This document shows, in pieces, positions 25,478-32,297 of a stretch of DNA of 51,686 nucleotides. Source of the stretch: Phycisphaerales bacterium (GTDB lineage Bacteria > Planctomycetota > Phycisphaerae > Phycisphaerales > UBA1924); contig RECY01000041.1 of the NCBI GenBank assembly GCA_007693785.1, positions 1 through 51,686 on the forward strand, read 5' to 3'. A program made the translations under genes and the position numbers. Numbering within the stretch: position 1 is the first letter of the stretch; each line of letters begins with the position of its first letter. Under the pieces are notes generated by a model. That model had not been told where the DNA came from. It made no database searches and worked only from the letters and a program-made list of their open reading frames with translations.

Positions 25478-26620
25478 ATGAGCTACACGGTCCTGGCGCG
25501 TCGGTATCGGTCGACGGATTTTGACGAGGTGGTCGGGCAGGCGCCGATCGCACGGACGCTGAAGAACGCGATCGCGTCGGGGCGGGTCGCCCACGCCTAC
25601 CTGTTCTGCGGCACGCGCGGGGTCGGGAAGACCTCCATGGCCCGGATCCTCGCCAAGGCCCTGAACAACCCCAACGACGCGGACGACGTGGCGAAGGCGA
25701 TCATGACCGGCGGCGACACGGACGTGGTCGAGATCGACGCCGCGAGCAACACGGGCGTGGACAACGTGCGGGATCTGATCGCGAACGCGGGGTACCGCCC
25801 GATGCGCGGGCCGTTCAAGATTTATATCATCGACGAGGTCCACATGCTCTCGACGGCGGCGTTCAACGCGCTGCTGAAGACGATGGAGGAGCCGCCGGAG
25901 CACGTGAAGTTCATCCTGTGCACGACGGACCCGCAGAAGGTGCCGGCGACGATCCAGAGCCGCTGCCAGCGGTTCGATTTCCGGAACATCCCGGTGAGCG
26001 ACATCGCGGGTCACCTTCGGGAGGTGGTCGAGAAGGAGTCGCTGGAGGCCGAGGCGGAGCTGCTGATGCAGGTGGCGCGCCTCGGGCAGGGTTCGATGCG
26101 GGACGCGCTGAGCCTGCTCGACCGCGTGATGGCGACTGGGGAGAAGAAGCTGACGCTCGCGCTGCTGGACGAACTGCTGGGCCTGCCGGACCGGGAGCTG
26201 ACGGGGCGGCTGCTCGACGCGGCGCTCGCGGGCCACGCGGCGGGCGCGCTCGAGGCGGGCGACGAGCTGCTCTCACGCGGCACCGGGCTCGACCAGGTGA
26301 TCGAGACGCTGCTGGGGCGCTTGCGGGACCTGATGGTCTTCGCGGCGTGCGGCCCGGACACGGACCTGGTGGACCTCACCGGCGAGGCGCGGGCGTCGGA
26401 AGCGGCGCGGGCCGAGCGGCTCGACGCGGCGGGGGCGACGCACATGATCGCGCTCTGCGAGAGCGTGCAGCGGGCGTGCCGAACGAGCCCCGCGCCACGG
26501 GCGCTGTTCGACGCGATGCTCGTGCGCCTCGCGCTCACCGAGCGTCTGGCGGACGTCGCGTCGATCCTCCGCGAGCCGGGAGCGGGCGGAAGCGGGCGGG
26601 CACTCGCAAAAAAAGCCTGA
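25478..26620 (+). CDS. dnaX: DNA polymerase III clamp-loader subunit, predicted gamma form
   Basis: AAA+ motor subunit that loads the beta sliding clamp. The zero-frame product is 380 residues: Walker A GTRGVGKTS (about 45-53), Walker B IYIIDEVHML, sensor 1 LCTTDPQ, sensor 2 GSMRDALSLLDR, then the helical collar domain. The zinc module normally inserted after Walker A (four Cys in most DnaX) is missing; only ALNNPNDADDVAKAI is there. The frame stops at TGA 26618-26620, one codon after seven A residues, just as E. coli gamma ends after its slip site. Downstream ybaB and a Nudix-like gene complete an operon. Confidence 0.94.
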   Translation: MSYTVLARRYRSTDFDEVVGQAPIARTLKNAIASGRVAHAYLFCGTRGVGKTSMARILAKALNNPNDADDVAKAIMTGGDTDVVEIDAASNTGVDNVRDLIANAGYRPMRGPFKIYIIDEVHMLSTAAFNALLKTMEEPPEHVKFILCTTDPQKVPATIQSRCQRFDFRNIPVSDIAGHLREVVEKESLEAEAELLMQVARLGQGSMRDALSLLDRVMATGEKKLTLALLDELLGLPDRELTGRLLDAALAGHAAGALEAGDELLSRGTGLDQVIETLLGRLRDLMVFAACGPDTDLVDLTGEARASEAARAERLDAAGATHMIALCESVQRACRTSPAPRALFDAMLVRLALTERLADVASILREPGAGGSGRALAKKA

Positions 26621-27339
26621 CGGCGGCGCCACGGACGCCCCCGGGTCGCGAAGCGATCCCGGTGGCAGCGGCGTCGCCGGAGCCAGCGGTGGAGCGGGAA
26701 CCAGAATCGAATTTGGAACCTCCTCGATCACCGGGGCCCGAGGTTCGCTCGGAGGGCGGTGCGCCAGAGGTAGAGACGCCACGACCCGGGTTTGGTGAGT
26801 CGACTCTAGAAGAACGATCCGGGAGCGACGGGCGGGACGCCCGTCCCACCGGGGACGGGGAGAAGCGATCGAGCGAGCCCAAGGCCACGGTCGATGTCTC
26901 GGATCTCCGCGCGGTCTGGGCGGCGGCGCTCGGGCTGGTGAGCAAGCCGATCGTCGCGACGGTGTACCGCGGGTGCGTGCTGGAGCGGGCCGAGGGCGGC
27001 GAGGCGCTGGTGCGCGTGCCCAGCGGCGTGGGGCTGACGTTCTTGCAGTTTCATCAAGCGCCGATGGAGGCCGCGTTGTCGCTGGCGCTGGGGCGGGACG
27101 TCACGATGACGCTCGCCCCGACGGAGGACGGGCCGCCGTTGCGGGCGAGCGCGTCGGCGTCGGAGACGCGAACGCCACCGGGGCGGGACGTCGAGCATCA
27201 CGACGGCTCCCGCGCGACGCCGACGGAGAACGCCGACACCACGCCGGAGATCGTCCGGCGCGCGATCGAGCTCTTCGGCGGCTCGGTCGCCGGGGTCCAC
27301 CGCAAGCGCGAACGACCCGATCCGGAAAGCTCGGCGTGA
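25478..27339 (+). CDS. dnaX: predicted tau form of DnaX made by -1 frameshift
   Basis: Joining the zero frame to the -1 frame at the A_AAA_AAA heptamer (shifted codons begin at 26614) gives 379 + 241 = 620 residues, close to E. coli tau (643). The tail starts with a Pro/Glu/Arg-rich linker (about 380-475). That linker contains an in-frame copy of a dispersed hairpin repeat, read as SDGRDARPTGDG. A compact domain follows (DLRAVWAAALGLVSKPIV, then VRVPSGVGLTFLQFHQ), then a low-complexity end. In E. coli the tau tail binds DnaB helicase and the polymerase alpha subunit. Independent translation of the tail is unlikely, as no start with a good ribosome site is seen. A sequencing error or transcriptional slippage remain alternatives. 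Confidence 0.75.
26608..26679 (+). promoter_or_regulatory. dnaX: predicted -1 ribosomal frameshift signal in dnaX
   Basis: The slippery heptamer A_AAA_AAA occupies 26608-26614; zero-frame codons read GCA AAA AAA GCC TGA. After a spacer of six bases, a 10-bp stem pairs 26621-26630 with 26670-26679 (one G-T pair). Inside it a second stem pairs 26641-26649 with 26653-26662 (one bulged T, GAA loop). Purine-rich GGAG and GGCGGAAG stretches lie upstream and might act like the internal Shine-Dalgarno of E. coli dnaX, although spacing is looser. Confidence 0.75.
26827..26845. repeat. 8-bp/GGA-loop hairpin inside the tau-coding linker
   Basis: GACGGGCG-GGA-CGCCCGTC, a perfect stem with the same 8+3+8 geometry as the copies at 23473, 23507, 27373 and 30282. 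It is followed by CCACC like the others. It is read through in frame as protein. Confidence 0.8.
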
Positions 27340-27372
27340 ATAACACGGGCAGCGGGCCTGCTTGCGGGCGGA

Positions 27373-27391
27373 CACAGGTCGGAGACCTGTG
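27373..27391. repeat. 8-bp/GGA-loop hairpin between dnaX and ybaB
   Basis: CACAGGTC-GGA-GACCTGTG. With flanks (27371-27401) it is identical over 31 bases to the copy at 23471-23501. It sits in the 118-base gap between the tau stop and ybaB. No T tract. Confidence 0.85.
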
Positions 27392-27457
27392 CCACCACGG
27401 ATCCCTGACACCGCCGGCCCCGGTGGGTCGCCGATCGGCGCGTGCTTAGGATTCAGC

Positions 27458-27832
27458 ATGTTCGACCAGTTCAAAATCATGGGTCAGGTCGCGGCGCTGA
27501 TGAAGGACAAGGAGCGTCTGCGCGAAGCGGGCGAGCGGATCAAGCGTGAGCTCGACGCGGTGCGTGTGGACGGCGAAGCCGGGGGCGGGGCGGTGCGTGT
27601 GACGGTCAGCGGCTCGCTGGTCGTGGTCGGCGTGCGCCTGGAGCCGGCGGTGGGCGCGGGGATCGGCAGCGACGACGCGAGCCGGGCGCAGGTGGAGACG
27701 CTGATCGCGGAGGCGACCAACGAGGCGATCCGCCGAGCGCGCGAGGAGGCGGCGCGGGTCATCGAGCGCGAGGCCGACGCGCTGGGCCTGCCCGCGATCC
27801 CGCCCGAGGTGCGAAAGCTGATCGGCTCGTGA
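27458..27832 (+). CDS. ybaB: YbaB/EbfC family nucleoid-associated protein
   Basis: A 124-residue DNA-binding protein of the YbaB/EbfC family, which forms pincer-like dimers and often lies beside dnaX and recR. It has the expected helix-sheet-helix order: MFDQFKIMGQVAALMKDKER, an amphipathic helix, a VRVTVSGSLVVVGVRLEP sheet and the ATNEAIRRAREEAA helix. The start is set by family similarity, with AGGA eight bases upstream. Placement after dnaX is the conserved order; recR has moved elsewhere. The stop overlaps the next start by four bases. Confidence 0.92.
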   Translation: MFDQFKIMGQVAALMKDKERLREAGERIKRELDAVRVDGEAGGGAVRVTVSGSLVVVGVRLEPAVGAGIGSDDASRAQVETLIAEATNEAIRRAREEAARVIEREADALGLPAIPPEVRKLIGS

Positions 27833-30383: not shown

Positions 30384-32297
30384 CTACACGCGCATCGCCT
30401 CACGGAGGTGCTCATCGAGCCAGCGCACGGCAGCTGCGGTCTGGTCGCCGCTGCCCAGGACGGCCGCGTCGGCGGCGAGCAGCGCGGGCTGGTCGCCGGG
30501 CTCGCTCCGCCCCGGTCGCCCGCGTCGGACCAGGCTCCGCAGCGCGGGCGTCGAGTACAGCAGCGGCACGCGGGCGGCCGCCGCCAGGCGCACGACGCGC
30601 GACTCGGCCTGCGCCAACCGCGCGCTCCCCGTCTCCACCGCCAGGTCCCCGCGCGAGAGCAGCACCGCGCACCCCGCCCAGCGCAGCGCGCCGAGCAGCA
30701 GCGCGTCCAGCGCGTCCACCATCCGCTGCGTCTCCACCGTCAGCACCAGCCCCGGGAGCGCGCGCCCCGCGGGCAGGTGCGCACGCAGGCGGCTCTCGAT
30801 CAGGTCCAAATCGGCGGCGTCGCGGCAGAAGGCGATGCCGACCGCGTCGGCGTGGGCCGCCGCGAACGCGAGGGCGCGCTCGTCGCGTTCGCTGAGCAGC
30901 GGGATGCTCGTCGCGGTGTCGGGCAGGTGGATCGGCCGGTCGGCAGCCAGTCGCTCCGTTGCGCGCCGCGTGCGCACGACCTCCAGCTCCGCGCCCGCCT
31001 CGTTGGTGCGCACGCATCGGGTTTCGAGGCGACCTTCGTCGAAGAGCACGCGCGCGCCGGGCGAAAGGTCGTCGATGACGCCGGGGAGCGTGCAGGCGAT
31101 CCGCGCCGGCGTGCGCCCGTCGCGCTCACCGGGGCGGCCCGGGGTCTGAGATCTCGTGAGAAACAGGCGGTCGCCGACACGGAGCGGGATGGGGCGCTCG
31201 CCCGCGGGCAGCTCGCCGACGCGCGCCTCGGGCGGGCGCGAGCCGGGTTGCTCGAGCGTGAGCGGGAGCCCGGGCGTGAGGTAGGTGGAGCGGTTGCAGA
31301 GGGCGTGCCGCTCGTCGCGGGGCGCGGCGCGTGGGTCGCCCGCGACGACAACGAGCGTGCGTCGTCGCCCGCGCGCGTCGGTGACGCTCAGGCGGTCGCC
31401 GTGCTGGAGCGTGTCGAGAAACGTGCGCGCGAGTGGCAGGCAGGCCACATCGGCCTGCGTGCTGTGCGCGTCTGGCGCGCCGTCCTCGCTCGCGACAAGG
31501 CGAACGCGCCCGGGCGCAACAACGTGCCCGACGGCGTCTCGCTCCGGGCGGATGCGCACAACGCCCGGGCCCGGCTCGATCGCGCCCGTGCGCAAACGCG
31601 GCCCAGGAATCGTGACCAGCAGCGGCACGCGACGCTCGCGCTCGCCGCGCCGCAGATTGGTCGCCAGCGCGGGCCAGTCGCGCTCCCCCGCCCGCGCGGT
31701 GTTCAGACGTGCCGCGTCCATCCCCGCCTGGCAGAGTTCTTCCACGACCGCCGCCCCGCGCTCGCCGGCGGCCTCGGGGGGCAGCGTCGCGACGATCCGC
31801 GTCGGGCGCGGGCAAGGGGCGAGCAGCGCGTCGGCGGCCTGCCGGCGTGCGAGCCGCCCCGCGCGCTCGTCGCCCGGCGCGGGCGGGGCCGGGGCGTCGG
31901 CGACGGGTTCCCCGGCGAGCGCGGCGCACGCGAGGATCGCGGCGTCGGTCGCCGCCAGCACGCCGGCGGGCGCAAGCGTGGGCGTCCGCACGCCGAGGCG
32001 GGCGCACAGCTCGTCCAGTTCGTGCAGGTCGATCCCGCCCGCCCCGCGATGCCCGATCGCGTCGAGGGCCGCCGCGTGGAGCAGGTTCCGGGCGCCGCCC
32101 CGCACGCTCGCCGCCACGCGGAGGCAGTCCTCGCCCCGCGCCCGCTCGCCCTCGACGCACCGCGTGCGCACGAGACGGAGCAGCGCAAGGCAACGGGCCG
32201 CGAGTGCGGGCGTCCCGGGCTCGTCGGCTTCGGGCCTGGCAACCTCAGGCTGGGGCGGCTGGATGGGGCGGTCGGTCTCGGGCATCGCGTGGTGCAT
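30384..32297 (-). CDS. divergent long-form pyruvate-kinase-like protein
   Basis: A 637-residue protein resembling the long bacterial pyruvate-kinase family with an extra N-terminal domain (GARNLLHAAALDA, residues about 68-115). Barrel landmarks are recognisable: RIVATLPPEAA, LCQAGMDAARLNTA (PK: aGmxvaRxN), IPGPRLRTG (PK: GPKIRTG) and LLSRGDLAVETG (PK: ARGDLGVE). The conserved SKIEN segment carrying the catalytic Lys reads LTVET, so the Lys is Thr while the metal-binding Glu remains. Alanine/arginine bias is strong. It may be a non-canonical kinase, an altered phosphotransferase or catalytically dead. ATG at 32285 is an alternative start. It is divergent from gatC. Confidence 0.7.
   Translation of the reverse strand: MHHAMPETDRPIQPPQPEVARPEADEPGTPALAARCLALLRLVRTRCVEGERARGEDCLRVAASVRGGARNLLHAAALDAIGHRGAGGIDLHELDELCARLGVRTPTLAPAGVLAATDAAILACAALAGEPVADAPAPPAPGDERAGRLARRQAADALLAPCPRPTRIVATLPPEAAGERGAAVVEELCQAGMDAARLNTARAGERDWPALATNLRRGERERRVPLLVTIPGPRLRTGAIEPGPGVVRIRPERDAVGHVVAPGRVRLVASEDGAPDAHSTQADVACLPLARTFLDTLQHGDRLSVTDARGRRRTLVVVAGDPRAAPRDERHALCNRSTYLTPGLPLTLEQPGSRPPEARVGELPAGERPIPLRVGDRLFLTRSQTPGRPGERDGRTPARIACTLPGVIDDLSPGARVLFDEGRLETRCVRTNEAGAELEVVRTRRATERLAADRPIHLPDTATSIPLLSERDERALAFAAAHADAVGIAFCRDAADLDLIESRLRAHLPAGRALPGLVLTVETQRMVDALDALLLGALRWAGCAVLLSRGDLAVETGSARLAQAESRVVRLAAAARVPLLYSTPALRSLVRRGRPGRSEPGDQPALLAADAAVLGSGDQTAAAVRWLDEHLREAMRV

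Follow-up and report, generated by a model that had tools for sequence, protein, structure and literature searches.

A dnaX gene of the Phycisphaerae in which tau, rather than gamma, is most likely made by programmed -1 ribosomal frameshifting

Introduction

The dnaX gene of the DNA studied here raises the question of how many proteins it encodes. The window, by which we mean the whole stretch that was analysed (contig C33 of a 3.06-Mb genome, 51.7 kb in length), carries a dnaX whose reading frame closes just behind a run of seven adenines, and beyond this point the -1 frame stays open. We asked whether this gene makes two clamp-loader subunits, gamma and tau, which of them is the standard product, and whether ribosomes or RNA polymerase would bring about the change of frame.

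Results

The zero frame of the window's dnaX (25478 to 26620, + strand) was assigned by translation together with NCBIfam and Pfam matches. It starts at ATG 25478, ends with the codons GCA AAA AAA GCC TGA and gives a predicted gamma of 380 residues. The slippery heptamer A_AAA_AAA (26608 to 26614, +) lies in zero-frame phase, one codon ahead of the stop TGA (26618 to 26620, +). Followed from 26614, the -1 frame runs through 241 codons to a TGA at 27337–27339, and this putative tau tail (26614 to 27339, +) would extend the product to a tau of 620 residues. The initial annotation had described the 380-residue product with these final codons, the perfect heptamer, the 241-codon frame with its 380/620 sizes, and a 10-bp stem around an inner hairpin six nucleotides past the heptamer; all of these were recovered as read, one pair of the stem being G.U.

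The N-terminal region of the product matched the NCBIfam model dnaX_nterm (TIGR02397, E = 1.7e-114), and PF13177 (DNA_pol3_delta2), PF22608 (DNAX_ATPase_lid) and PF12169 (DNA_pol3_gamma3) scored above their Pfam cut-offs within gamma; the N-terminal ATPase, the lid and domain III of DnaX are all present. The A7 run is the only run of at least seven A or T in the window, for which 0.23 were expected from 30 dinucleotide shuffles. GC content at the three codon positions was 0.75/0.60/0.83 in the -1 tail and 0.71/0.47/0.94 in the zero-frame gene, with the same rank order. A ybaB/ebfC-like gene lies 3' of dnaX (27458 to 27832, +), with its start read at ATG 27458 and a match to PF02575 (E = 4.3e-14) in the ORF at 27362–27829. 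Further on, a 637-aa ORF on the reverse strand (30384 to 32297, -) has a partial match to PF00224, the pyruvate kinase barrel (E = 2.4e-26, profile positions 68–317), and looks like a divergent pyruvate kinase relative.

The window's family was searched in 163 genomes. Matches, a few of them weak, were obtained in 162, and the locus was read in 140, the other 23 having no or only a partial match, a contig end or a locus that was not retrieved. A two-ORF dnaX with an in-phase X_XXA_AAA before an early zero-frame stop was found in 133 of these 140 genomes, from 63 genera, and none of the 140 loci held a two-ORF dnaX lacking an in-phase heptamer. The heptamer is A_AAA_AAA in 115 of the 133, G_GGA_AAA in 16 and C_CCA_AAA in two; it stands 0–1 codons from the stop in 129, and 6 or 7 codons from it in the remaining four. 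The codon that follows is variable (CGC, GCC, TCC, none, others), and all three stop codons are used. Over codons 1–345 of the same 133 relatives, in-phase X_XXA_AAA was encountered 11 times in 45,563 codon positions (10 of the 133 genomes have one), from which a heptamer in the two codon positions before the stop would be expected about 0.0005 times per genome by chance, compared with 129 of 133 observed. Seven genera have G_GGA_AAA and two have C_CCA_AAA, nine together; on the dnaX tree, with its many weak forks, these heptamers need 6 and 2 changes respectively, whether gains or losses.

Seven of the 140 family genomes are single-frame exceptions, five of them with A8–A9 runs. The exception G069 has an in-phase A7, tau in frame and a -1 frame that stops early, as in the E. 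coli layout. In G104 (locus L219) there is an A6 and a fused frame; since its congeners, among which it nests, carry A7 and its contig is nearly the whole assembly, this A6 is likely a homopolymer error. The alignment of relatives for which the initial annotation had called came out in its favour, the A7-type heptamer, the immediate stop, the stem and the -1 tail all being conserved.

For comparison with the -1 tails we took 59 single-frame rows, drawn from the family, from its order and from nearby; they include G104 and probably one duplicate (L049 and G350). Seven of the 133 -1 tails had no stop within the stretch and were excluded. A profile of the -1 tails matched 58 of the 59 in-frame single-ORF tau tails at E < 1e-3. 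The reverse profile, built from the single-ORF tau tails, matched 112 of 126 -1 tails, that of the window with E = 2e-8, and gave 0 of 127 matches in the zero frame and 0 of 127 in the +1 frame. The 14 of 126 tails that it missed are 63–121 aa long. These profiles show the -1 tail to be a homologue of the tau tail that relatives encode in frame. In genus g40 (L164, L165, L169, L170, L171 and L173) the tails are 71–84 aa and only the terminal helix block (e.g. LVRRARELF) is left; these genes retain G_GGA_AAA although their -1 tail is without the domain V-like part.

When Pfam and NCBIfam were searched with the window's tail alone, no useful match was returned. Among ten tails compared with Pfam, that of the single-frame L056 passed the DnaX_C cut-off (E = 1.1e-7) and that of L049 matched PF12362 (gamma and tau C terminal) below the cut-off (E = 2.4e-4). 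BLASTP aligned the window's tail with one relative's tail over 16 terminal residues only. The terminal helix block, IVRRAIELFGGSVAGV and its surroundings, lies at 27241 to 27297 (+) and corresponds to helix 212–222 of the structure model. A pattern for this block, fitted by eye, was found in 115 of the 126 -1 tails, the window's own not being one of them, and in 16 of the 59 single-ORF tails; it was absent from the other two frames and serves here as secondary evidence only.

The structure model of the tail (mean pLDDT 66.8, pTM 0.39) contains one confident domain, at residues 97–171 counted from 26608 (26896 to 27120, +). Its pLDDT is 90–96 per block of ten over residues 101–170, and its elements follow the order helix-helix-strand-strand-helix-helix-strand. 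No Foldseek match to the tail model reached an E of 0.001 or lower. Near matches were 5fkv_E, from the E. coli Pol III complex (E = 2.7e-3, 23% identity), a chain that we take to be tau, and 2aya, the C-terminal domain of E. coli tau (E = 4.7e-2, probability 0.98, 22% identity). VIA-align 2 placed 2aya at Z 6.5 (rmsd 2.8, 74 aligned) and 5fku_E at Z 6.9. Chains from DnaA complexes outranked tau with both programs (in VIA-align 2, 4tps_B with Z 10.8 and 2wp0_D with Z 8.2), and DciA and ribosomal chains scored similarly to tau in VIA-align 2. The modelled fold of the window's tail thus resembles domain V of E. coli tau, which binds polymerase, but not uniquely, folds of this type being common. 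Because DnaA-complex chains score higher and DciA and ribosomal chains alike, a domain V-like fold alone does not prove tau, and the sequence profile carries the main weight. With the relatives' profile and the near matches to 2aya and 5fkv_E, the tau-tail domain that the initial annotation had thought plausible gains substance, and a tau C-terminal region is found in the -1 frame only (by profile and model, with no Pfam hit).

The presumed stimulatory stem of the window starts 6 nt past the heptamer. Its 5' arm (26621 to 26630, +) and 3' arm (26670 to 26679, +) form 10 pairs around the inner hairpin (26641 to 26662, +). A stretch of 60 nt folded from +6 gave a z of -3.29 (0.3% of 1000 shuffles as low), compared with -2.77 from +4 and -0.90 from +0 (17.6%), and longer stretches gave weaker values (70 nt from +6, z -1.82; 86 nt, z -1.16, not significant). 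The window's own stem is significant only if the folded stretch is framed on it; what makes the stem convincing is the comparison across the family, not the single sequence. A genus-averaged scan of the family in 60-nt segments, spaced 30 nt apart between -360 and +360 with closer sampling around the site, showed a single dip, with z of -1.8 to -2.1 in segments starting 0 to 7 nt past the heptamer and near -2 for starts from +2 to +5. The mean z was back at -0.4 by +12 and ranged from +0.1 to -0.4 in segments at least 30 nt away. With the 5' arm placed at +6, a perfect helix of 7 bp formed in 0.55 of cases within its own region and in 0.19 with the downstream regions of other genera (20 draws per genome, n = 127 after exclusion of 6 of the 133 genomes that were without flanks), and the stem arms therefore covary. 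The 5' arm is not one fixed sequence, with 65 different octamers in 127 genomes.

Upstream of the heptamer, a Shine-Dalgarno-like element with no GGAG core was located at 26593 to 26600 (+), where the best 8-nt anti-SD duplex has -6.3 kcal/mol. The reference for the anti-SD was the match to GGATCACCTCCTT in the window's own genome, taken as the 16S tail. The window's element ranks 78 of 133, the medians being -6.6 kcal/mol for the family and -1.9 kcal/mol for the controls. Averaged over the family, the duplex reached -6.0 kcal/mol in the segment starting at -14, over a background of -1.4 (sd 0.3), for which only offsets below -30 were used; the energies computed for the three offsets +22 to +24 were impossible and reflect a program artefact. 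GGAG begins at -14 to -11 in 71 of 127 family genomes, and a duplex of -5 or lower is seen in 85% of heptamer genes and 11% of controls. A second, lower peak of -4.2 at +12 falls inside the G-rich stem, so that G-rich sequence alone gives part of such signals. The window's gene combines an in-phase X_XXY_YYZ heptamer, a downstream stem-loop and an upstream SD-like stimulator, its copy of the last being middling.

The genome of the window has a tRNA-Lys with UUU and one with CUU, and a further search added none. The Lys-CUU anticodon arm was found in 140 of 163 family genomes and in 106 of the 112 good ones; the lysine-UUU anticodon pattern matched only 63 of 163, presumably owing to stem variation, and was not used as evidence. 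None of the 133 heptamers ends in AAG, which fits AAA being the shift codon where the CUU tRNA is present.

The tail could also be reached by transcriptional slippage of the Thermus kind, in which bases are gained or lost when RNA polymerase transcribes the A run and ordinary translation of the altered mRNAs yields tau. We regard this as improbable for the window's family. Many relatives of the same order carry A9–A12 runs, with 16 two-ORF dnaX genes among them, and the accessible part of the study by Antonov et al. (2013; PMC3711429) makes a case for slippage on shorter poly-A runs as well. Against this, 18 of the 133 family heptamers (G_GGA_AAA or C_CCA_AAA) have four As only. Tandem slippage of two tRNAs explains these heptamers and homopolymer slippage does not, and they point to ribosomes rather than RNA polymerase. 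All of the 113 A7–A8 runs at the site in family two-ORF genes are in one phase, whereas the poly-A class shows phases 0, 1 and 2. The stem, moreover, goes with the heptamer class and not with the poly-A class. In 65 poly-A relatives there was no stem signal (mean z -0.06 to -0.47 from +0 to +12) and the SD signal was weaker (median -3.0); some SD enrichment is present there too (32% at -5 or lower, compared with 15% in their own control), and the SD element is for this reason not exclusive to the heptamer class. A Thermus-type run of about nine or more As was found neither in the window, with its A7, nor in the 18 of 133 relatives with four As.

Gene fission or coupled re-initiation, with gamma and the tail as two proteins and the tail started internally near the gamma stop, is less probable still. 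The -1 frame of the window does contain GTG codons (19 and 28) and a TTG (36), numbered from 26608, and the first ATG/GTG/TTG of this frame falls at codons 3–5 in 25 of 133 genomes, in some of them overlapping the stop (e.g. GCATGA). No start is conserved, however: the first 40 codons hold an ATG in 23 of 133 and any ATG/GTG/TTG in 78 of 133, at scattered positions, and a free-standing tail accounts for neither the in-phase heptamer nor the stem at +6. A sequencing or assembly error or a decaying gene, in which one true frame is split by an indel in the A run, is hardly credible. The site is indeed a homopolymer and G104 has A6 with a fused frame, but the same split recurs across 63 genera, in 133 of the 140 family genomes read, with substituted heptamers and a conserved SD, stem and tail. 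Judged from these sequences, the two-ORF split of the window's dnaX is no assembly error, and the continuous frame in relatives that had been named as a sign of one holds for 7 of the 140 family genomes only.

Another 73 loci came from genomes of other families of the order, mainly the best-scoring matches among the genomes searched. A single frame with A8 or longer was read in 44 of them and two frames with A9 or longer in 16; eight have two frames with a heptamer, two a single frame with an in-phase A7 and two a single frame with neither signal, and one is a fragment. In G199, G184 and L051, which are single-frame with an in-phase A7, the -1 frame stops within 10 codons, the anti-SD duplex is -4.3 to -9.5 and a downstream fold is present; by their sequence these genes have the E. 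coli layout. L051, L318, L320 and L177 share an E. coli-like layout, with tau in frame and an in-phase A7 after which the -1 frame closes within 10 codons; the order to which they belong also contains the reversed layout. Family f6 (L231, L238, L252, L258, L260, L274, L276–L279, L282, L284, L288, L291 and L293) has two-ORF dnaX genes with A10–A12 and no stem signal, probably a second two-ORF class that uses transcriptional slippage. The outgroup consisted of seven planctomycete loci: six, Gemmata, Aporhodopirellula and Schlesneria among them, are single-frame with A9–A10, and L058 shows neither signal. A FastTree tree was built from 222 dnaX N-termini, two family genomes with partial N-termini being omitted; on it the five layout labels need 22 changes, compared with a shuffled mean of 73.9. 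Many of its forks are weak, and beyond the outgroup state we claim no direction of change. Both mechanisms, ribosomal and polymerase, seem to be present in the order, each with its own anatomy.

Discussion

Our analysis suggests that the dnaX of the window makes two clamp-loader subunits by programmed -1 ribosomal frameshifting, a reading to which we give a probability of about 0.92. Ribosomes that stay in frame would read GCA AAA AAA GCC and stop at TGA, giving gamma of 380 aa. At the stem 6 nt downstream, ribosomes would pause on A_AAA_AAA, held by the upstream anti-SD contact, and some would slip back by one base and read AGC CTG ACG, giving tau of 620 aa with a tail that is predicted to carry a fold like domain V of E. 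coli tau. We observed the elements of the site and their conservation, the homology of the tail and the fold predicted for it; that the shift occurs, that ribosomes are its agent, and at what rate, we infer from these. The proposal of the initial annotation that one gene gives both DnaX forms through a -1 frameshift is supported across the family by the heptamer with its stop, the SD-like element, the stem and the tail homology, and a ribosomal mechanism by the stem, the SD-like element and the four-A heptamers in 18 of 133 genomes. Left implicit there was a swap of roles: in contrast to E. coli, standard decoding most likely gives gamma, and tau arises from the shift. How efficient the shift would be is uncertain, because in the E. 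coli work covered by the accessible part of a 2016 review (PMC5009743) A_AAA_AAA is far less shift-prone than A_AAA_AAG.

For the order as a whole, we think it likely that dnaX has switched between four layouts that all yield these two proteins, namely a poly-A run in one frame, a poly-A run in two frames, a heptamer with an in-frame tau and a heptamer with an in-frame gamma. The last would be nearly fixed in the window's family, where several lineages would have swapped A_AAA_AAA for G_GGA_AAA or C_CCA_AAA, and what selection maintains would be slipperiness and the pair of products, not any one sequence or the choice of which product is shifted. If this is true, ribosomal shifting is available to a host with two lysine tRNAs, provided that the A-site codon is AAA and not AAG. 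The 133 genomes of one family, together with relatives of other layouts, provide a large comparative case of a textbook recoding event with the roles swapped. Three questions become testable with them: whether the target of selection is the ratio of tau to gamma rather than the identity of the shifted product, whether a host's set of lysine tRNAs determines if its ribosomes shift or its polymerase slips, and by what route one mechanism gives way to the other. For annotation, we expect that a single-frame gene caller would see the short gamma only and miss the tau tail.

The two-ORF layout of dnaX is itself already known, from 2013 (Antonov et al.; PMC3711429, as far as its accessible text goes). 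In the literature searched, which lay outside most subscription journals, we found no report of a two-ORF or tau-shift dnaX in Phycisphaerae, and none of G_GGA_AAA or C_CCA_AAA in dnaX. As far as these searches show, the family-wide conservation, the substituted heptamers and the four layouts in one order are new.

The closest known system is the dnaX of E. coli, which has an in-phase A-rich heptamer, an upstream SD-like element and a stem at +6 in the same gene, with the same two products. Measured in the same way, E. coli K-12 has A_AAA_AAG, a stem that begins at +6 and an AGGGAG that ends 10 nt upstream. In E. coli, however, the shift on A_AAA_AAG makes gamma, since the stop is in the -1 frame and the shifted frame ends at once, whereas in the window the stop is in the zero frame, the -1 frame runs on for 241 codons and the shift on A_AAA_AAA would make tau.

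In its arrangement the window's gene belongs with the two-ORF dnaX genes of Antonov et al. (2013; PMC3711429), with the gamma stop in the zero frame beside the shift site and the tau tail in the other frame, so that tau needs recoding. The accessible part of that study gives 17 such genes from 12 genera, 12 of them poly-A (nine with A10 and one each with A9, A8 and A7), and suggests transcriptional slippage for those with A10; that of Chlorobium phaeobacteroides also has seven As. According to the accessible part of the 2016 review (PMC5009743), tau seems to be the frameshift product in many fewer bacteria, of which C. phaeobacteroides is named from unpublished work, with potential stimulators like those of E. 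coli. The window's family differs from the 2013 set: in this one family, 133 genomes combine stimulators with a heptamer that is A7 or contains four As. The dnaX of Thermus thermophilus, which relies on transcriptional slippage, likewise has two products, and as in the window's genome there are two lysine tRNAs, which, in the accessible text of the same review (PMC5009743), may be relevant to its use of polymerase slippage and not ribosomal shifting. Thermus has a longer A run in a single ORF, and in this the poly-A relatives resemble it, whereas the window does not.
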